A stretch of DNA of 20,163 nucleotides, taken from the IMG/VR virus record IMGVR_UViG_3300044611_000234, positions 1 to 20,163 of that record; one strand, written 5' to 3'. The stretch's first letter is position 1; each line of letters opens with the position of its first letter. This DNA comes from a virus. Below, piece by piece: positions 2,102 to 18,903 of the stretch. The notes beneath the pieces were generated by a model. The model did no database searches, was not told the DNA's origin, and worked only from the letters and a program-made list of their open reading frames with translations. Both the position numbers and the translations under genes were made by a program.

Positions 2102-3466
2102 TTACAGTCCTAACGCATCTTTAAGACGCAAAGATTCTTCGTTCCACACGGTTGAACGCTTTTTACCTGATTCTTTAGATTCAATTTCACCCGCTCCACG
2201 ACTTGATGTCAAGCCAGTTGTTGGTAGCGGTGCGCCAGAAGACAGATTCAATCCTTGAGCCAAAGGAGAACCTGAAGTTGGAGCTACACCCGTAAAGTAC
2301 ATGCTTGGTTTGATGGTTTTGAGAGGTGCTTCTTTTGCTGGTTTCTCAGCAACAGGCTGATTTTCTTCTACGATTTCTCTTTCACCAGTAACTTTCACTT
2401 CTGGCAAGCTGTCAGTTTCCCGCTGTGCTGTAACTTTCACTTCTGGCAAGCTGTCAGTTACTGTAAAAGGCAAGACGTTCTCAGGTGCGCCTGGCTCCCG
2501 CTTTGCTGTAACTACAATTTCACCGCCTGGTTTGGATTGACCAGGCACACTGACGCTAGGTTTTGAGACAGTTGTAGATGTGTAAGGCAATACATTTTCA
2601 GGTGCGCCTGGTTCCCGCTTTGCAGTGACTTTCACTTCTGGCAAAGTACCAGCAGGTTTTGATGTTGGTTTTGTCACAGTTGTAGATGTGTAAGGCAATA
2701 CATTTTCAACCGCACCAGCTTCTCTACCAGCAGTAACCCTGATTTCACCAAGCTGGTTTCCAGCATCTGTCATTGTTCCTGTACCTGCATCTGCAAGTTG
2801 AGTACCTGGCTGTGCTTTGCTGGTATCTACCAATTTTTGTGCGTCAGCAGCAGCTTGTTGTTCAGGTGACAGTGTTGCTTTGTAAGCGTTGTCTTTGTAG
2901 TTCTGGTATCCCACATTTGCCAAATCAATCAACTGTGTATTAACAGCAACATTGATAGCTTCTTTAACGTTACCGCCAGTAGCTATGAAAGTACCTACGC
3001 CTTTACCAGCAGCAGTACCAACACCTGTGGTTTTGCCAAACTCAGTAGAGCCAACAGCATCTCCAACACCTGCACCAATACCACCAGAAACAGCATTTCT
3101 GATAATGTCTTCTGGTCTACCACCCGCAACAACAGTACCTGCGGCAGAACCTGCGGCAGAACCAATAGCGGAGGAGCCTGTAGAAGTTGCTGTGCTGATG
3201 CCAACAAAAGAAGTTACACCAGAAACAGCACCTGCTTTAAGAGAATCTTTCAATGAATTACCTTGAGCTAATGAACTAGCGGTAGTAATGGCAGCAGAAC
3301 CTGCGGCAGTAGCGGCAGCGGCAGAAGGAGCCGCCACACCAAGCGTTGTCAGAATAGAGTTACCAATAGCTGGAATCAATGCTGGATTGACAATGGCAAT
3401 AACAACAAGAGCAACTGCTGCTACTTTTTTGAATGCGGATTTAACTTTTCTCCAAAATTTACCCAT
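2102..3466 (-). CDS. Ala/Gly-rich membrane-active probable ejection protein with TonB-plug-like repeats
   Basis: A 454-residue protein; AGGAG lies six bases before the ATG. Residues 1-15 are basic and amphipathic (MGKFWRKVKSAFKK) and lead into a hydrophobic segment at about 16-45. Residues 45-175 are a long Ala/Gly/Ser/Thr stretch with small-residue spacing like glycine zippers (GSAAGSAAG, GGIGAGVGDAVG), suited to membrane insertion or pore formation. Residues 241-364 carry five copies of a motif of the form E[VI]xVT[AG]xRE, at 241, 277, 316, 342 and 356; three are followed by a spacer of the type PGAPENVLP. The tail is polar with a basic patch near 433-437 (ESGKKRSTV). Position after the fibers and this composition suggest an injected internal protein that helps DNA cross the envelope. 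The family is not recognised, so the function is inference. Confidence 0.8.
   Translation of the reverse strand: MGKFWRKVKSAFKKVAAVALVVIAIVNPALIPAIGNSILTTLGVAAPSAAAATAAGSAAITTASSLAQGNSLKDSLKAGAVSGVTSFVGISTATSTGSSAIGSAAGSAAGTVVAGGRPEDIIRNAVSGGIGAGVGDAVGSTEFGKTTGVGTAAGKGVGTFIATGGNVKEAINVAVNTQLIDLANVGYQNYKDNAYKATLSPEQQAAADAQKLVDTSKAQPGTQLADAGTGTMTDAGNQLGEIRVTAGREAGAVENVLPYTSTTVTKPTSKPAGTLPEVKVTAKREPGAPENVLPYTSTTVSKPSVSVPGQSKPGGEIVVTAKREPGAPENVLPFTVTDSLPEVKVTAQRETDSLPEVKVTGEREIVEENQPVAEKPAKEAPLKTIKPSMYFTGVAPTSGSPLAQGLNLSSGAPLPTTGLTSSRGAGEIESKESGKKRSTVWNEESLRLKDALGL
2375..2746 (-). repeat. Coding tandem repeats: five VTAKRE-type motifs
   Basis: This stretch encodes residues 241-364 of the 454-residue protein. 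The five motifs read EIRVTAGRE, EVKVTAKRE, EIVVTAKRE, EVKVTAQRE and EVKVTGERE, spaced 36, 39, 26 and 14 residues apart. The DNA is also repeated: a 30-base identical segment occurs at 2388-2417 and 2430-2459 (offset 42 bases). The unequal spacings and near-identical DNA suggest recent expansion by unequal exchange. Confidence 0.85.
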
Positions 3467-5553: not shown

Positions 5554-7200
5554 TCATGCTCCTTGTAATGCGGCTATTTGTGCTTTTGCTGTATCAAGTT
5601 CAGCTTTGAGTTCTTGGATGGCTTTGATACACAAAGAAACCATATTTCCATAAGCTAAGGCATCTGGGCTTCCGTCTTCGGCATATTGCACAAACTCTGT
5701 CAAACCAGCGGCATGGACTTCTTCAGCAATTAAACCCCCAAATACTGTTTCGCCATCGTTTGCGCCTTTTCCTTTATAGGTAACAGGTCGAAGTTGTAAA
5801 ACTTTTGTAATGCCATGTGTTGCATTTTGCACATCACGCTTGTATTTGAGTGATGAGGTTGAACGAATTATTTGACCAGCAGATGTGACAAACACATTTG
5901 CCGCACTACCCGTAGTGCTGACGTAAACTTTTGGCACAAACAAATCTTTGTTGCTGTCTAAATACAAGTTTGGATTCCCATCCCCATCAGACAGCACGAT
6001 GTAGTTGCTTGCTGTGCGAATGTCTAAGCCGCCTTGGTTGCCGTTGTAGCCGCCAAGGATGGTATTTTTAGAGCCTGTGGTCATTGATGCACCAGCGGAG
6101 CTTGCCGCAGACACTCCAATAAAAGTGTTGTTGCTACCAGTGGTAAGAGAAAATCCAACAGAGTGCCCGATGAGGGTGTTTCTTTCTCCGGTGGTAACGG
6201 AAGCTCCAGATTGCGTACCAACAAAGGTATTGACGCCTGATGTTGCGGCATAACCAGAAGATTGGCCAACAAATGTGTTGCCTGCGCCCGTCTGGTTTGT
6301 ATACCCCGCCTGATAACCTACAGCAGTGTTGTTGGAGGCTGTGGTGTTGGCTTGAAGGGCTTGGCGACCAAGCGCCACATTGGCAGAACCTGTGGTGTTT
6401 GCGTACAGTGTTTGATAGCCGCCAACTGCCAGATTGTCTGTGCCTGTTGTATTTGAGTACAACGCTTGATAACCAACAGCTACAAGTGTAGCGCCTGATG
6501 AGTTTGAGTAACCCGCCTGATAACCAACAGCAGTGAAATACAAGGCATTGTTTGTATATCCAGCTTGGAATCCAACTGCAACACCTTGTGCGCCGCCAGT
6601 TGTGCCACTATACAACGCCTGATAACCCACAGCAGTGTTGCTGGAGGCTGTGGTGTTGGAGTAAAGAGACTGAGAACCCAGAGCAGTATTGTTTGCACCT
6701 GTGGTGTTGCCGTCCAAAGCGTAAGCACCAAACGCAGTAGGAGTTCCAGTTGTGTTGGCTCTTGCGGCTCTGAATCCAACCGCAGTAACATCTGCCGCTG
6801 TAGTCGTGGCTTCAGCGGCTCGGTTGCCAACTGCAACATTTTCAACACCTGTCGTATTAGCCGCCAAAGCACTAGCACCCACCGCAGTGTTGGTAGACAC
6901 AGCACCTGCGCCACGGCCTACGGTGAGGCCTTGTATCGTTGTTGCCGTACCAGCTATAGTTGCATTACCTGTAACAACAAGCGTAGATACATTTGCAGTG
7001 CCACTGACATTAGCACCAGTAACAGTTACATTACCACTGCTGATAGTGACGTTAGTAAGCGTCACATTACCAAAAGAAGTTACTGTGTTACCTAGCTGTA
7101 CAGCGGTATTACCGATAGTAACAGGGGTAGCAAAGTTGGTATCTAGTTGCGATAACGGAATTGCCGAAGTCGCAGTACCGAAAATATTAGGAACAGCCAT
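5554..7200 (-). CDS. Trimeric tail fiber/spike with YadA-like beta-roll repeats and C-terminal S74 chaperone domain
   Basis: A 548-residue protein; GAGG lies seven bases before the ATG. Residues 1-20 (MAVPNIFGTATSAIPLSQLD) form a short N-terminal region that may anchor to the virion. Residues 25-100 are Asn/Thr/Val-rich beta shaft. Residues about 103-385 hold many tandem units of about 17 residues of the form NTAVGxxALxxNTTGxx, as in left-handed beta-roll heads of trimeric adhesins. Residues about 449-530 match the peptidase S74 intramolecular chaperone: SSLKYKRDV (Ser449/Ser450 and Lys454 as likely catalytic pair), LRPVTYKGK, FGGLIAEEVHAAG, then a C-terminal helix (CIKAIQELKAELDTAKAQIAAL). 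In this family the domain assists trimer folding and cuts itself off. The mature fiber would then end near residue 448. Host recognition is the expected role. Confidence 0.92.
   Translation of the reverse strand: MAVPNIFGTATSAIPLSQLDTNFATPVTIGNTAVQLGNTVTSFGNVTLTNVTISSGNVTVTGANVSGTANVSTLVVTGNATIAGTATTIQGLTVGRGAGAVSTNTAVGASALAANTTGVENVAVGNRAAEATTTAADVTAVGFRAARANTTGTPTAFGAYALDGNTTGANNTALGSQSLYSNTTASSNTAVGYQALYSGTTGGAQGVAVGFQAGYTNNALYFTAVGYQAGYSNSSGATLVAVGYQALYSNTTGTDNLAVGGYQTLYANTTGSANVALGRQALQANTTASNNTAVGYQAGYTNQTGAGNTFVGQSSGYAATSGVNTFVGTQSGASVTTGERNTLIGHSVGFSLTTGSNNTFIGVSAASSAGASMTTGSKNTILGGYNGNQGGLDIRTASNYIVLSDGDGNPNLYLDSNKDLFVPKVYVSTTGSAANVFVTSAGQIIRSTSSLKYKRDVQNATHGITKVLQLRPVTYKGKGANDGETVFGGLIAEEVHAAGLTEFVQYAEDGSPDALAYGNMVSLCIKAIQELKAELDTAKAQIAALQGA
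6046..6894 (-). repeat. Fiber beta-roll repeats, about 17 residues (51 bases) per unit
   Basis: This stretch encodes residues 103-385 of the fiber. Units carry AVG/ALG/FVG at about 17-residue steps (near residues 106, 123, 140, 156, 173, 190, 208, 224, 241, 258, 275 and onward). The DNA is visibly repetitive; words such as taaccaacagc and gtggtgttg recur. This also creates long open shadow frames on both strands. Confidence 0.85.
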
Positions 7201-9198: not shown

Positions 9199-10038
9199 TT
9201 AGAAGGTAGAGTAGGGGTCAGGGATTCTGCGTGTGTACACAGAGTTCAACACCGCTTGGATTTGCTTGGCATACTCTTGCTTGTATATCTCAGCTTCTCC
9301 ATAACTCTGTTCTTTGTACTTGGCTTTGTAAGCCGCATAGAAAGCTACAGGCGTGGTGTAGGGGTCTTGAATCTGGTCATTAGCGTTGGGCGTATTCAAA
9401 CTTAACGCAGTAGGCAAGATAGTGCTATCTATCTCTACGACATACGACTGGTCAGGGACAGGGCCAACGTAGATGGTGTTTTGTCCGTAAACAGAGAAAC
9501 ACACGGGTCTGCCGACATAGTTCTGCCAGTAACGCAGTTGAGCATTAAAGTTTGACCAGGGCAGATACCGCAGTGGAATACGGCTGTTACCCCAGTAAAC
9601 GTTGACGTTCAGGATGTCGAGTGTTGTGCCAGTAGCAATAGTGGCATAGGGGATAACTTCCGCAGGGCCAGAATATTGCAAACTGGCTGTGCCATCTGTA
9701 AAAGGGGTAGAAGGTGGGAAAGTGTAGCCAGAAGCGGGATAAGGTGGAGGTGTAGTACTGAGAACACCACCAGTTACAACTTCATAGATAAAGATGTTGT
9801 TGAATAAGAACTGACCCGCAGTAACAGTAGCACCCGCAGTCCAAACGGTTGCGGGTACTCCTGTACTAGAAATTGGAGTGGCAGTAATTTGCAGGGTACG
9901 TAAGCACCCAGTATCTCTCGCTACTCGCTCACGGGCATCGTTGATGTAGTCCGTTAGCTCCGAGGTTGACCAGAAGACAGAGTTTGCATCATGCAATAAC
10001 CGCTGTACTTCCGTGATGTAGGAAGAGAGAGTTGCCAT
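9199..10038 (-). CDS. Head-tail adaptor (P22 gp4-like position)
   Basis: A 279-residue protein; AAGG lies four bases before the ATG. The N-terminus ([37 protein letters not shown]) is the hallmark: a short helix, a 'lLhDa...wst.EL.dyIN.Ar..va.dt' segment seen in many phage head-completion proteins, then a basic helix. Residues 45-220 are beta-rich and Pro/Tyr-rich with strand pairs (PIPLSTG-type turns, [15 protein letters not shown]). Residues 225-265 return to helix ([34 protein letters not shown]), common at the end of such adaptors. It sits directly before the hub gene, as gp4 precedes gp10 in P22, and is longer than P22 gp4. The protein probably binds the portal ring and receives the hub. 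Confidence 0.72.
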
Positions 10039-11144: not shown

Positions 11145-12146
11145 TTACAGTGAAAGGTAGTTGTAACCCGTCACCTTGGTCATGGCTTTGGGTTTGACGT
11201 TCACCAATTCGGCAATCATCAAAACCGCACCGACATAACCAATTTGCCAGTTGGGGAGAGTGGACTCAAAGCCTGTAAACACGAACGAACCTTGCTCATG
11301 GATGTACAGAGACAAGTAGTTAGTGTTCAGGAAGTACACAGTACCTTCTGGGCAGTAGGGGTCTGGATAGATAGGTACGCCAGCAACCATCAAAGCACGG
11401 AAAGCTGCTTGAGGGCCATTGGTTTCACCGTCAAAACCTGCACCTGGGGTGATAACGTATTGCTCTTGACCAACAAAGTCTTGAGCCAACAGTGTCCAAG
11501 TACCGAAACCGCAAACACCGAACGAAGGCATTTCAGCACCGTTTTTGACAGTACCAGAAATGTATTGCAGGATGTTTTGACGGGTTGGGTTCACAGAGCC
11601 AGCGGCATACTGTGAGGATTTCCACCAAGTGTAAGTACCACGGTCAATGTTGCCGTAAGTACCAGAGTTAGCAACAGCAGCGGGCAAGCCGATGAATTGT
11701 TGTGTATTGCTGGTGTTGGTGTACAAGGCAGTTGCCATTGCATCCATCATCACGTTGGTTGCATCGTTCATACGAGCTTCAATCAACGGAATAATGGCGG
11801 CATCTTGCTGAACTGCGCCTTCCATACCGAGGAACGGCACGGGAGAAATCATCAGTTTCAGGTCGAATTCAGCGTTGTAAGCACCTTGTTGGACTGACGG
11901 CTGGGCAAAAGAGCCACTGTAGTCAGACCATTGAGCGTTCACAAACTGTGCGCCTTGGACAGGAACGGTTACAGAAGACACACCGCCAGAGGCTGACTGA
12001 CTGTTGGCAATCAGAGCCGCCATCAAGGGCGTGGAGTTGTAAAGCTGGACAACCAGCTTGGGAATAAAGGCTCTACGAGTTACATAAGTCAGTTCATTGA
12101 ACTGTGCTGACCCTGTAGCTGGTAGGATGCCGCCGCCAATAGCCAT
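11145..12146 (-). CDS. Major capsid protein
   Basis: A 333-residue protein with the strongest ribosome binding site seen here (AAGGAGG four bases before the ATG), as expected for the most abundant virion protein. The N-terminal segment (FNELTYVTRRAFIPKLVVQLYNSTPLMAALI) and the beta strand after it (SVTVPVQGAQFVNAQWSDYSG) fit an HK97-fold N-arm and E-loop region. The middle (IEARMNDATNVMMDAMATALY) is a long helix matching the spine helix. The C-terminal half (YISGTVKNGAEMPSFGVCG, GVPIYPDPYCPEGTVYFLN, NWQIGYVGAVLMIAELVNVKPKAMTKVTGY) fits the A-domain. It follows the scaffold gene and lacks a fused protease or delta domain, so the scaffold is separate. Length is typical. Confidence 0.88.
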   Translation of the reverse strand: MAIGGGILPATGSAQFNELTYVTRRAFIPKLVVQLYNSTPLMAALIANSQSASGGVSSVTVPVQGAQFVNAQWSDYSGSFAQPSVQQGAYNAEFDLKLMISPVPFLGMEGAVQQDAAIIPLIEARMNDATNVMMDAMATALYTNTSNTQQFIGLPAAVANSGTYGNIDRGTYTWWKSSQYAAGSVNPTRQNILQYISGTVKNGAEMPSFGVCGFGTWTLLAQDFVGQEQYVITPGAGFDGETNGPQAAFRALMVAGVPIYPDPYCPEGTVYFLNTNYLSLYIHEQGSFVFTGFESTLPNWQIGYVGAVLMIAELVNVKPKAMTKVTGYNYLSL

Positions 12147-13651: not shown

Positions 13652-13830
13652 CTTGAACTCCCATATTGTTTGCGGTTAGAGTCACGTTGACTCCTTCCGT
13701 AGGAGGTTTTATACCCTGTTTGACGCATTGTCAAGTTGGGTGGTGCTTCATTCCTTTTCAAGGAGGCAGTGTCTACCCGTGGTTGGTCAGCCGTAGGCTG
13801 TGTCATGCCAGTTGTGTTTGGAGCCATCAT
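13648..13830 (-). CDS. Small polar protein coupled to the portal gene
   Basis: A 60-residue protein, rich in Thr, Pro, Arg, Asn and Gln (TQPTADQPRVDTASLKRNEA; YGRSQRDSNRKQYGSSR), with a strongly basic C-terminus and no hydrophobic core. Two ATGs are in tandem: 13830 overlaps the portal stop by four bases, and 13827 has better spacing from AAGG. The protein is probably disordered. It begins the run of small basic products at the portal-scaffold junction. Unknown function. Confidence 0.65.
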   Translation of the reverse strand: MMAPNTTGMTQPTADQPRVDTASLKRNEAPPNLTMRQTGYKTSYGRSQRDSNRKQYGSSR

Positions 13831-15473
13831 CCCACCTTTTTCAAGTCTGGTTTACCTTCTGCCTTTGGAGGTTGCATTTGTTGCATTTGCTGCTGCATAG
13901 CCTGTTGAGCTTCTTGCTTTTCTTCTGCTTTTTTGAGTCTATCTAACAACAATTGTTTCATTGGCGGCTCAATCATGTCAAGCAAGGACTCTTTGTCGAT
14001 TACGCCAGCTTGGAACAACTCAAACGCCATCTTGCGGCTGTCTTCCATAAAGATGGGTGAATTTGAATGGGCATCCACCTTCACCACAAAGTCACGGGTA
14101 AACTGGTCGGCAATGAATTTCAGTCCAAGTGCGTCTGTGTAGTGGGTGTTATCGTAGACCTGCATACATTTCAGGTACAGGGTAGCCATCTTTTCTAGGC
14201 TGTCTTCAATAACAAGGGCACGTTTCTTGGCTCGGCTAGAACCCAGACGGGCAAGTTGGGAAGCGTGACCAGAAGAACGGACACCTGCTTCACCACGGCC
14301 TTGCAAGACGCTGACGATACCAGATGCCTCTTCAAACATCAGGTCAACTTCACCAATCTCACGGAATAAATCAGGTGGAATAGTTGGTGCTAACTTCTCG
14401 ACTTTAGCGTTTGGCATGTCGGTTGCTAGCAAGCCACCAGCACGGTTGAGAGCAAAGTTCTTCTCATCCAAAATGCCTGTAAAGCCAATCAGGGCGGTAG
14501 GTGGGCTGACTTGTTTGGACAGCAAGTCCAAGATTTCCGTCATTCGTTTGTTGCGTAACTGCTGGAGGTAGACCAGACGCTGAACCTCGGACGCACCCCA
14601 GTAGTAGTCGTACAGGGGGTTGGGGCAGATTTGGATGAAAGGCAACTCACCTTTCAAGAACATGCTCTCGCCAGAACGGTCATAGATGATGACGTTGGGG
14701 TCGGCTTTGGTTACAACTTGGTAATCTTTGGTCTCGTCATTCCACACCCAGAGTTCAATCATCTCGATGGTGTCTTCGGAGACTTGGGCTTTGTAGGTGG
14801 GGTTTCCCGACAAGTCTAGGTTGACGTTACCGTACATGGTCGGGTTGGTTTGGGACAGGATGATGCGTTGGATGCCACTGGCAATCTCGGTACGCTCATG
14901 CTGCGAGGACATGACCCGTTTGACGATGGCATCTCTGTCTGGGTGGGAGTAGAGTCTGTCGAACAACTCGGACTTGGTGATGTAGTAGGAGTGGACAAGG
15001 GCTTCTTGCCTGTCAGTGTAGGCACTGTCTTCACGCAGTACGCCAATACAGGCGGGTTCCACCATGTAGGGGTGGATGCCGTTGTTGATAACGAGTTTGA
15101 CAAAGGTTGAGTTGTAGCAAAGTGACCACGTGACTGCGGTTGAGAACACTTGGTCAGCGTTACTATTGAGCCATTCGTCATTCAGAGCTTTGCTCAGAGT
15201 CGGAACCTTAATCTGCTCGTCCTCGGAGACAGCCGCACCCGTGTGGATAGAGAACTTGGTGGTTTCTGCTGAGTACAGGAACGAGGTCAGTTGGTCAATG
15301 TGCGGATAAATCTTGTTGTAGATGGCGGGTACGTCATCAGGAGCGTTACCAAACAGGTAGTAGCTACGTAAGGATGAGTAATCGACTTTACGTTGCTCAC
15401 GGCTGACGAGACATTTTTCTATCAAGTCGAGATAGAACTGTTCTCTAGCAATCGGCTCTTTAGGTATTCTCAT
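13827..15473 (-). CDS. Portal protein
   Basis: A 548-residue protein whose ATG overlaps the previous TGA (ATGA), with AGGTGAG just upstream. Residues 1-70 are helical (REQFYLDLIEKCLVSREQRK; VPAIYNKIYPHIDQLTSFLYS), the usual start of portal wings. The central region has beta stretches (YMVEPACIGVLREDSAYTDR; IIYDRSGESMFLKGELPFIQICPNPLYDYYWGASEVQRL) and a helix-loop (EASGIVSVLQGRGEAGVRSSGHASQLA) seen in portals near the channel region. The C-terminus is a charged helix ending in Gln/Met-rich sequence (QAMQQQMQQMQ) and a basic tail, like a portal barrel or crown. The twelve-subunit ring would sit at one capsid vertex and bind the terminase. Family match is from sequence style and location. Confidence 0.85.
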   Translation of the reverse strand: MRIPKEPIAREQFYLDLIEKCLVSREQRKVDYSSLRSYYLFGNAPDDVPAIYNKIYPHIDQLTSFLYSAETTKFSIHTGAAVSEDEQIKVPTLSKALNDEWLNSNADQVFSTAVTWSLCYNSTFVKLVINNGIHPYMVEPACIGVLREDSAYTDRQEALVHSYYITKSELFDRLYSHPDRDAIVKRVMSSQHERTEIASGIQRIILSQTNPTMYGNVNLDLSGNPTYKAQVSEDTIEMIELWVWNDETKDYQVVTKADPNVIIYDRSGESMFLKGELPFIQICPNPLYDYYWGASEVQRLVYLQQLRNKRMTEILDLLSKQVSPPTALIGFTGILDEKNFALNRAGGLLATDMPNAKVEKLAPTIPPDLFREIGEVDLMFEEASGIVSVLQGRGEAGVRSSGHASQLARLGSSRAKKRALVIEDSLEKMATLYLKCMQVYDNTHYTDALGLKFIADQFTRDFVVKVDAHSNSPIFMEDSRKMAFELFQAGVIDKESLLDMIEPPMKQLLLDRLKKAEEKQEAQQAMQQQMQQMQPPKAEGKPDLKKVG

Positions 15474-16368: not shown

Positions 16369-17152
16369 ATTTGTACTCCGCTGTATAACCTTGGCTTTCC
16401 ATCCAGGTCATAAACTTCATTTCACCGTGGCTGAAACGGGGGTCGGCAGGGACAACGATGTGGTTATCCGTCACCAGCTTCCTTGTCTGGGCGTGGTGAC
16501 CCAACAAAGTCCCGAAATCAAAGTCATCTTCGTGGAATCCAAGCCCGACATACTCAATACTGAAATGTTTGGCAATGTCGATAGGACAATATTTGTACCC
16601 ATAACCTTCAAGGACGGGCTTCAGAATGGCAGACAACTGAGCATCTTCATTCCAGCCGTGTATCTCGTTGCTGTTCAGGTGCATGATGCCGTGCTTGTTA
16701 CAGGCTTCTAGGAAACGCTTGCTACGTAGGGAAAACCCACCATTCTGAACAACAGAAACAGGCTCTGTGGCTTGTGTCCACGCAAACTTCAGGTACAGGT
16801 GACCGTCACCAAAAGCGCAGTGTGAAGGTGCGCCTATGTAGTCATAGTCATAGTATTCAGGTTTAAAGTTATTTCCGTTAAGCACCCAACCGTCATCTTG
16901 GACAATCAGGCAGAAGTCTGTTTCTATGTACGAATACAGACTGTGCATGGTAAACAGGGAATACCCTAAGTAATCTATGGGGTGGCAACGCTTCCACTCT
17001 ACGCCTTCTGGCATGTTCTCTGGCTTTTCAACAGAGATGAGCAACCCACGGCTACCTGGCAACTCCCGCACAGACCTGACGATGGAGGGCAGGGCAGAGG
17101 CTCCGTTGTTGTGTCCGTAGATAGACACGATTGTAAGTTGGCTGTGGTTCAT
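16346..17152 (-). CDS. DUF5672-type glycosyltransferase-like protein
   Basis: A 268-residue protein; its ATG overlaps the terminase stop (ATGA). It carries the features I associate with the DUF5672 glycosyltransferase-like family: an N-terminal strand and loop (LTIVSIYGHNNGASALPSIV), FCLIVQDDGWVL at about 80-91 with the acidic pair Asp86-Asp87 in QDDGW, DYDYIGAP at 102-109, NGGFSLRS at 137-144 and EDAQLS at 169-174. In GT-A-like enzymes such acidic pairs bind metal and nucleotide-sugar. No signal peptide or membrane segment is present, so it acts in the host cytoplasm or on virion proteins. Likely to add sugar to a phage or host target; the acceptor is unknown. Its place between terminase and portal is unusual for such a gene. 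Confidence 0.78.
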   Translation of the reverse strand: MNHSQLTIVSIYGHNNGASALPSIVRSVRELPGSRGLLISVEKPENMPEGVEWKRCHPIDYLGYSLFTMHSLYSYIETDFCLIVQDDGWVLNGNNFKPEYYDYDYIGAPSHCAFGDGHLYLKFAWTQATEPVSVVQNGGFSLRSKRFLEACNKHGIMHLNSNEIHGWNEDAQLSAILKPVLEGYGYKYCPIDIAKHFSIEYVGLGFHEDDFDFGTLLGHHAQTRKLVTDNHIVVPADPRFSHGEMKFMTWMESQGYTAEYKYDPSIQA

Positions 17153-18903
17153 TGTCCGTACATTCCGATGCGTTTGAGGTAGTCACTGACGTTTCTTCCT
17201 ACAGCGATTTGTTCAGGGCTGTAGGATTCTTGAGCTTCACTGACATGTCGTGACAGTTTGTGAGCTATCAAGCGAGGCTGAATCTGTTCGGCATAAGCAA
17301 CGGCAGCAAGGGCAGAGGCAATCACACGGTCATCTTTACCACGACCAGGTGCGCCCAAGAAACCACCTTCTCGCACGATACCTTTCATCTCTTCTAGGGT
17401 ATCCATGCTGAGAATGCCCATCATGCCCCGCTCAAAATAGTCTTTCATGTACTGCAACATGCGTTCTTTACTGTTGGCAGTGGTGAGGTAACCAATACTG
17501 TTGGAGAGGCCTCCAAGGGTGTCGTTACGCCTCCAGATGTAGTTGGTCATGCTACCCAGTACATCCATCAAGTCCCGCCCTGTAGCCCCGCCCATAGAGG
17601 TTGCCAAGCGTTTCAAGTTCCGCAACTCGTTAATCACGGCCTGACCTGGCCCGTTAACTTCAAGGTTAAGGGTTGAGTTCTTGTATGCGCCAGCAAGGTG
17701 GGCGATAACCCACGCAAACTGGTAGGTGTTTAATTCCGAGGTGGCAAACTCAGCAACTTGGTCAAGCCCATCTGCGTAGCATCTGTAGACTTGGATACAG
17801 AATCTATCTGCCCAATCAGAACTACCATAAGCGGGGTCAGCACCAATAACGTAGTAAGCAGAATCAATAGGCTCTTCCCATACCTTGAGAGTACCGAGTC
17901 TCTCAGTAGATTTAAGAACCTCTGTATCTTGGAAGAGTTGTCCGAAAGCATATCTGTAGTAATCACATTCTGTAGTCTTACTCTTCTTGGCAGCTTCCGT
18001 ACACCGTGTGTGCGAGAAGAAAGAGGAACCTGTCATCACAAAGGCATAGTCCTCAGTGGGTGGAAACTCTTGATACATCAGGGCATCGTCCTTGATACCT
18101 TCTGCCATCTTCCACCGCCACCAAGCCATCTGCCGAGAGTTAATCTCAAAGCCGTAGAGCTTCTTAATATCCTTGTGCCACTCTTTCTCCTCCCCTGTTA
18201 ACTTCCCATCCCAGTACACCTTGTAGATGTTGGAATCAGCAGGGACTTGGTAGTACTCATTACGCCACCAGCCACAGAAGATGGCACGTTGTGTCTTTGC
18301 TCGTTTGGCAGTCTTATACATGTCGTGGAACATGTTGAAGCCTTGAGCCGTACTCTCAAACATGTACAGCCGTTCTGAGTTCTTTTCAGCAAGAGAGGCA
18401 ATCAGGGACGCTAAACCTTCTTCATTTCCCCAAGAAGCCGTTTCTGTACCGTGAAGGTAAGTAATCGCCTTACCTTGCCCCAGTCGAGACTTATTACCTG
18501 CAATCTGATAGAACAGTCTTGACCTGTTTTTAAGAACCATTTGGTTTCTGTTGTGGGCAACAAGCGGAATCTTGTACTCTTTGGGTAAACCTTCCATGTA
18601 CATAGCAAGAGTACTTCTGAACATGTCCCTGTTCTCTTCTGTATCCGCAACCAACGTGCCTTGCCATCCAGGATGTGTGAACTGCCAGTAGAGGTCAAGA
18701 GCCAAGGAAATAGTGGTGATACCAAGCTGCCTACCTTTAAGGATGACAAAGAAGTGGATGTCATTGTCTAGTCCCTTTTGTATCTCTTCCATGACATAAG
18801 TCTGAGTCCCCAGCAGGTTGGTCATCTTTTGAAGACCCTCTTCTTTTGTTTCCACCTTTAACTCTGCACAGAACTTATAGAATTTTTTTAAGTCGAAATT
18901 CAC
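17149..18903 (-). CDS. terL: Terminase large subunit
   Basis: A 584-residue protein starting with GTG at 18903; AAGGA lies eight bases upstream and the start overlaps the HNH stop (GTGA). Motor: Walker A-like KGRQLGITT at 56-64, catalytic acidic segment HGTETASW with Glu154, and coupling motif FESTAQG at 183-188. Nuclease (RNase H-like): GADPAYG with Asp356, LEVNGPG with Glu415 and GKDDRVIA with Asp524/Asp525. All key residues are present, so the enzyme should cut and pump DNA through the portal. Length is normal for this class. No known packaging-mode signature could be read reliably (headful versus cos). The C-terminal 40 residues are probably the portal-binding region. Confidence 0.95.
   Translation of the reverse strand: MNFDLKKFYKFCAELKVETKEEGLQKMTNLLGTQTYVMEEIQKGLDNDIHFFVILKGRQLGITTISLALDLYWQFTHPGWQGTLVADTEENRDMFRSTLAMYMEGLPKEYKIPLVAHNRNQMVLKNRSRLFYQIAGNKSRLGQGKAITYLHGTETASWGNEEGLASLIASLAEKNSERLYMFESTAQGFNMFHDMYKTAKRAKTQRAIFCGWWRNEYYQVPADSNIYKVYWDGKLTGEEKEWHKDIKKLYGFEINSRQMAWWRWKMAEGIKDDALMYQEFPPTEDYAFVMTGSSFFSHTRCTEAAKKSKTTECDYYRYAFGQLFQDTEVLKSTERLGTLKVWEEPIDSAYYVIGADPAYGSSDWADRFCIQVYRCYADGLDQVAEFATSELNTYQFAWVIAHLAGAYKNSTLNLEVNGPGQAVINELRNLKRLATSMGGATGRDLMDVLGSMTNYIWRRNDTLGGLSNSIGYLTTANSKERMLQYMKDYFERGMMGILSMDTLEEMKGIVREGGFLGAPGRGKDDRVIASALAAVAYAEQIQPRLIAHKLSRHVSEAQESYSPEQIAVGRNVSDYLKRIGMYGQ

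Follow-up and report, generated by a model that had tools for sequence, protein, structure and literature searches.

The window, i.e. the whole stretch of DNA analysed here, is an IMG/VR virus record of 20,163 bases. Pfam and PHROG matches assign the terminase to 17149–18903 (-), the portal to 13827–15473 (-), the major head protein to 11145–12146 (-), an SU10-type adaptor to 9199–10038 (-) and a tail protein that ends in an S74 chaperone to 5554–7200 (-). Positioned after the tail genes in this gene order is an open reading frame from the ORF list (2102–3466 (-)) that encodes a protein of 454 aa, probably an internal phage protein that is injected. It starts with a hydrophobic N-terminal stretch (residues 7–42, 3341–3448 (-); maximum 2.45 in Kyte–Doolittle windows of 19 residues), and hydrophobic stretches are visible within residues 7–60. 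The Gly/Ala-rich core (residues 46–200, 2867–3331 (-)) consists to 67% of Gly, Ala, Ser, Thr and Val and is helical in a model of very low confidence. Five copies of a short motif sit in a Pro-rich stretch, and the protein ends with a C-terminal tail (residues 436–454, 2105–2161 (-)) that contains VWNEESLRLKD and recurs in two distant relatives, as shown by the alignment with L031 and by the sequence of the L272 protein. In the structure model, with a mean pLDDT of 31.9 and thus a confidence too low to establish disorder, the motif region has neither strand nor helix; this part of the protein is apparently unfolded.

The gene shows traits of an ejection protein (location after the tail genes, hydrophobic and Gly/Ala-rich segments), though these are non-specific. 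The first-pass annotation had described a membrane-active start and a Gly-rich core in an ejection-like protein; the hydrophobic and Gly-rich parts are indeed visible, but no family match to a known ejection protein was obtained from Pfam or PHROG. For this protein Pfam gave nothing at E up to 10 and PHROG nothing better than E 0.42, and a PDB sequence search with the full-length protein and with the repeat region was likewise negative.

The repeated element is a short linear motif, x-E-[VI]-x-V-T-A-x-R, which the protein contains five times as [LG][PG]E[VI]xVT[AG]xRE between 2375 and 2752 (-). The copies read LGEIRVTAGRE (residues 239–249, 2720–2752 (-)), LPEVKVTAKRE (275–285, 2612–2644 (-)), GGEIVVTAKRE (314–324, 2495–2527 (-)), LPEVKVTAQRE (340–350, 2417–2449 (-)) and LPEVKVTGERE (354–364, 2375–2407 (-)). 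Copies two and three are also recognised by a DNA pattern for E[VIM]xVTAKRE, which occurs twice in the sequence and in none of 100 dinucleotide shuffles. When residues 201–440 were shuffled, one copy of E[VI]xVT[AG]xR arose in 7 of 20,000 trials and two copies in none, so the five copies are not due to chance; the five EIVVTAKRE-like copies reported before are thereby confirmed far above the level of shuffles. The repetition is partly due to duplication, as DNA units of 30 nt and 80 nt recur.

A protein search in IMG/VR revealed four close relatives of the 454-aa protein. Two of them have five motif copies (L002, L003), one has three intact copies and an altered one reading EIVVKAKR (L004), and one has three (L005). 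A distant relative (L031; 35% identity over a BLAST segment and 32% when aligned with the window protein) lies in a gene order that resembles that of the window and contains two standard copies and a degenerate one. The search with the terminase led to two environmental complete genomes with 74–75% identical terminases (MW202825 and MW202753). In MW202825 a 616-aa protein (L272, 14522–16372 (-)) adjoins the homolog of the 112-aa neighbour of the window protein; it carries TLPEVEVTAERE and TLPEVEVTADRE together with a variant copy TLPEVEVTAES and has a similar C-tail. That record annotates the homolog of the window protein as 'ribonuclease E', a name for which no support was seen here. MW202753, a near relative of the window phage, has no motif-bearing ORF. 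The N-terminal halves of the window protein, L031 and L272 differ greatly and the motif copies and the C-tail are kept. In these three proteins (window 2105–2161 (-)) the kept tail reads VWNEESLRLKD or VWNIESLRTKD and may be a docking or packaging tag. In cultured phages tblastn gave nothing useful with the full-length protein, with its repeat region or with a consensus peptide; one of these searches had weak matches at chance level, as did a search of plasmids.

The window protein contains the N-terminal signature of TonB-dependent transporters (TBDTs), [L/E][P/E]E[V/I]xVTAxR, and its repeats had been called TonB-plug-like. A profile of the 32 residues downstream of the motif was built from 44 TBDT-like N-termini among the genome matches; these are 53 in-frame sequences minus nine dropped by eye (L058, L073, L078, L079, L091, L092, L108, L130 and L132) and thus outnumber by two the 42 in which Plug was matched. 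On this profile the segments after the five copies reached 0.9–4.0 bits, and shuffled window segments equalled these scores in 14–71 of 200 cases; eight TBDTs shown for comparison reached 12.4–32.2 bits, which are upper bounds because they belong to the profile. True homology, i.e. a captured piece of a TBDT plug domain, could appeal to a second profile of motif plus downstream region, which gave 9.3–28.3 bits on the five copies, though through the motif itself, including the neighbouring copy where one segment holds two. Against it stand the scores downstream, the lack of Pfam and PDB matches of the window protein and the result that none of the 44 phage clusters with the motif matched the Pfam Plug domain (PF07715) at E up to 0.01. 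Plug homology was therefore ruled out at the sensitivity used, and we regard it as hardly credible. The likeness of the window copies to TBDTs stops after about ten residues, which agrees with one of the two results that the first-pass annotation had named as refuting its idea, a lack of plug similarity past nine residues; the other, absence of the motif from other phages, is clearly contradicted by the counts below. As a statement on homology the earlier label was wrong, whereas the claim of a short motif shared with envelope receptors was correct and holds more broadly than the first-pass annotation could know, namely in many unrelated phage proteins.

Recurrence in other phages had been proposed as a test in that annotation, and it was found well above two permuted controls. 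Peptide patterns were scanned as DNA over IMG/VR, in-frame meaning that a match lies in the longest reading frame at the spot. The counts that follow include some identical or near-identical contigs: PEVxVTAKR was found at 15 loci (14 in the longest frame), LPEVxVTAxR with a CTN leucine at 28 loci (25) and the same peptide with a TTR leucine at 37 loci with 39 matches (28 in the longest frame; 23 of 32 without repeated contexts). Controls of equal composition with two residues swapped yielded 6 loci in one case and 9 in the other, with 1 and 3 of them, respectively, in the longest frame. If the arginine was not required (TLPEVxVTA), 64 loci with 65 matches were obtained; 30 matches are in the longest frame, and if each context is counted once, 22 of 49. 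In these contexts R or K occupies the expected position in 18 of 22 in-frame cases versus 1 of 26 others, one context being left out as the frame ended. The second wording of TBDTs, [DE]E[IM]VVTAxR, occurs at 33 IMG/VR loci, mostly in the longest frame. Over 46 phage instances the codons of the fixed motif residues vary freely, and therefore selection acts on the peptide; a mobile element at the DNA level was ruled out by the same variation. The residue before the arginine is T in 5 of 46 phage copies and in 22 of 44 TBDTs. Phages more often have D, P, S or K there, which means that their motifs were not recently copied from TBDT genes. Genomes with the motif amounted to 1 of 398 in Bacillota and 4 of 200 in Pseudomonadota, counts that each include a seed genome picked for its match and are too sparse to be compared. 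A selected short linear motif is likely, and the wider idea that phages carry a motif resembling that of envelope receptors is better supported than expected.

All fetched viral loci, repeated fetches of the same contigs included, contain 100 in-frame ORFs of at least 60 aa, and after masking of the motif the carriers form 44 BLAST clusters. A few of these are inter-related (L031 with the window family, perhaps L208 with L213). A PHROG scan covered 38 of the 44 clusters, leaving out those of L020, L022, L187, L195, L231 and L260, and in 19 of them a PHROG with an assigned function was matched at E up to 0.01. Of these, 18 are virion, ejection or lysis proteins, a proportion to be read relative to the background share of these classes among PHROG-annotated genes; the remaining one is a DNA polymerase (L018) and probably a chance match. 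The clusters of L022, L231, L260, L289 and L301 are unconvincing, and some clusters are probably due to chance. According to PHROG the carriers comprise tape measures (L013/L303, L302/L297/L290 and L282, weakly L038 and L298), baseplate hubs (L033 and relatives, L197), a tail tube (L291), a DNA transfer protein (L039), endolysins or amidases (L305/L011, L211 and L212) and other virion or tail structural proteins (L010/L206, L285, L036, L040 and L044, weakly L045). Pfam results agree in kind. Each of two related tape measures contains two motif copies, and in L297 one of the two is degenerate. The partners of two loosely homologous pairs (L013 and L303 among the tape measures, L011 and L305 among the endolysins) have different wordings that lie in similar regions but do not share an alignment column.

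When cultured phages were searched for homologs of the carriers, the motif was mostly absent or no match was found. All six annotated hub homologs that were retrieved begin within a few residues of the hub domain and have no motif (a seventh record is unannotated), and two tape-measure homologs are likewise without it. Two minor observations concern the carriers. The motif-bearing virion-type proteins of L031, L036 and L038 share a recurrent short string (YADGG, YDEGG or YADSG). An ORF of 110 aa in L037 (4219–4548 (-)) has a hydrophobic stretch followed by PSLPEVVVTAQRLPP and could possibly encode a small periplasmic phage protein that holds the motif in the envelope.

With the same pattern GTDB genomes yielded, among the matches listed (80 loci), 53 longest-frame ORFs, of which 42 carry Pfam Plug when scanned from 30 residues before the motif onward. 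One motif-bearing TBDT aligns from inside the motif to BtuB at VVTANR, including chain 2gsk_A of the complex of BtuB with TonB. The Ton box of BtuB covers about residues 6–12, and the arginine of the motif would lie outside of it and have a plug–barrel role in BtuB. By this indirect alignment via a TBDT query, the core of the window motif corresponds to the Ton-box segment rather than to the folded plug.

In the literature, the Ton box is described to add to the C-terminal domain of TonB as a parallel strand, with local secondary structure being more important for binding than single side chains, and to be found also in TonB-dependent colicins (PMC11658791). The bond between Ton box and TonB is reported to be mechanically strong (PMC5413942), and 'DQVVTATR' was proposed as TonB box of a Pseudomonas BtuB (PMC6118199). 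In pyocin S5 a TonB box of nine residues in the disordered N-terminus is reported to be required for binding of TonB1 (PMC7064778).

The window motif has the same core as the Ton box of TBDTs like BtuB and FhuA (ExVVTAxR compared to TLVVTANR of BtuB), and it is also short, strand-forming and probably flexible. Unlike TBDTs, the window copies have no plug or barrel downstream, and up to five of them are located deep inside the protein and not at a mature N-terminus, with a TonB binding that is putative. With the TonB boxes of colicins and pyocins (e.g., pyocin S5, PMC7064778), the motif shares its setting: a stretch resembling a Ton box sits in a probably disordered region of a protein that is no transporter and that reaches the periplasm, presumably so in the case of the window protein. 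This likeness is one of description and not of sequence comparison, and those boxes lie at the N-terminus, mostly occur once and have demonstrated TonB binding. L039 belongs by profile to the family of P22-type DNA transfer or ejection proteins (phrog_770) and has LPEVVVTADRE at ORF residue 45; the P22-like record MW202867 contains a protein with 98% identity to it. The window gene is similarly placed after the tail genes, but in contrast with P22-type ejection proteins its product matches no such family.

Our best single guess for the partner, held tentatively, is TonB or a TonB-like protein. The motif would be a Ton-box-like strand, gained many times in linkers of phage delivery and lysis proteins, probably for β-augmentation with TonB or a similar envelope protein; binding and function we infer from sequence. 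Such gains would have occurred repeatedly, in linkers and terminal regions of phage proteins that are not related to each other and work in the cell envelope or across it. Two common wordings of the motif, LPEVxVTAxR and EEIVVTAxR, correspond to the start of TBDTs, where the Ton box is included. The putative contact with TonB could anchor or pull an injected protein by means of the proton-motive force; alternatively the motif could sequester TonB. Avidity would be higher with several copies. The recurrence above both controls (28 loci, 25 in frame, against 6 with 1 and 9 with 3), the return of both TBDT wordings, the kept R or K, the free codon use, the virion, ejection or lysis nature of 18 of 19 carrier clusters, the Plug domain in 42 of 53 bacterial matches and the alignment to BtuB speak for the Ton-box reading, and TonB boxes outside TBDTs have precedent in colicins (PMC11658791) and pyocin S5 (PMC7064778). 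Against it count the many homologs without the motif (all six hubs, two tape measures and MW202753), the arginine kept in phages, which would lie outside the Ton box and need not be retained by a pure TonB-binding motif, the differing residue before this arginine and the endolysins and tail tubes, which have no obvious use for TonB.

A quite possible, if not favoured, explanation is a real selected short linear motif with another partner. This would be a phage structural protein (strand docking in assembly), another periplasmic domain that accepts an additional strand, e.g., TolA, or else a protease or chaperone, and the resemblance to TBDTs would stem from shared β-strand chemistry. Tail tubes, tape measures and endolysins share no known single step with TonB, the residues preferred around the core are particular to the phage copies, and R or K is kept in 18 of 22 in-frame contexts. 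However, a separate motif need not recur in both wordings of TBDTs, and a single phage-encoded partner is unlikely because the carriers span many phage kinds (44 clusters). We consider it improbable that the copies are convergent β-prone linkers without specific partner, i.e. Val/Thr/Ala-rich segments of low-complexity linkers, multiplied in the window protein by slippage and recombination. The DNA repeat units, the changing copy number in the window family and the many homologs without motif agree with it, but peptides permuted at equal composition occur much less often and usually not in frame, R or K is conserved with free codon use, and the copies are kept in L031 and L272 though the rest of the N-terminal part differs.

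The occurrence of the motif in many unrelated phage tail, DNA-delivery and lysis proteins suggests, but does not yet prove, that phages borrow the handle with which bacterial outer-membrane importers grip TonB. A bolder version appears doubtful: many tailed phages would have gained independently Ton-box mimics, some in tandem, in injected or envelope-breaching proteins (tape measure, hub, tail tube, ejection proteins and endolysins), and would use the TonB–ExbBD motor and hence the proton-motive force for genome delivery or anchoring, or would block TonB. The crossing of the periplasm by phage DNA and ejected proteins and the energy need of some infections are poorly understood. A motif that TBDTs have in common with many phage proteins of delivery and lysis, themselves unrelated, points to a specific host partner and provides a sequence handle for the discovery of further examples. 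Should the partner be other than TonB, the frequent gain of ten residues of this kind in non-homologous virion proteins would still call for an explanation. Searches for VTAKR, EVVVTA, VVVTATR and TonB boxes in phage proteins showed nothing describing this motif in the library searched (PMC9586334 included), and within this literature its presence in phage delivery and lysis proteins is not in print.

Motif copies were seen also in small bacterial ORFs. In a gammaproteobacterial genome (L073) an ORF of 134 aa contains LPEVTVLAGR and LPEVVVTASR, with no Plug recognised by eye. Two small non-transporters from candidate division WOR-3, encoded by ORFs of 139 aa (L058) and 162 aa (L091), contain about three copies each, those of L058 being more degenerate and those of L091 reading EEMLVTAPR, PEVVVTAPR and PEIVVTAPR.
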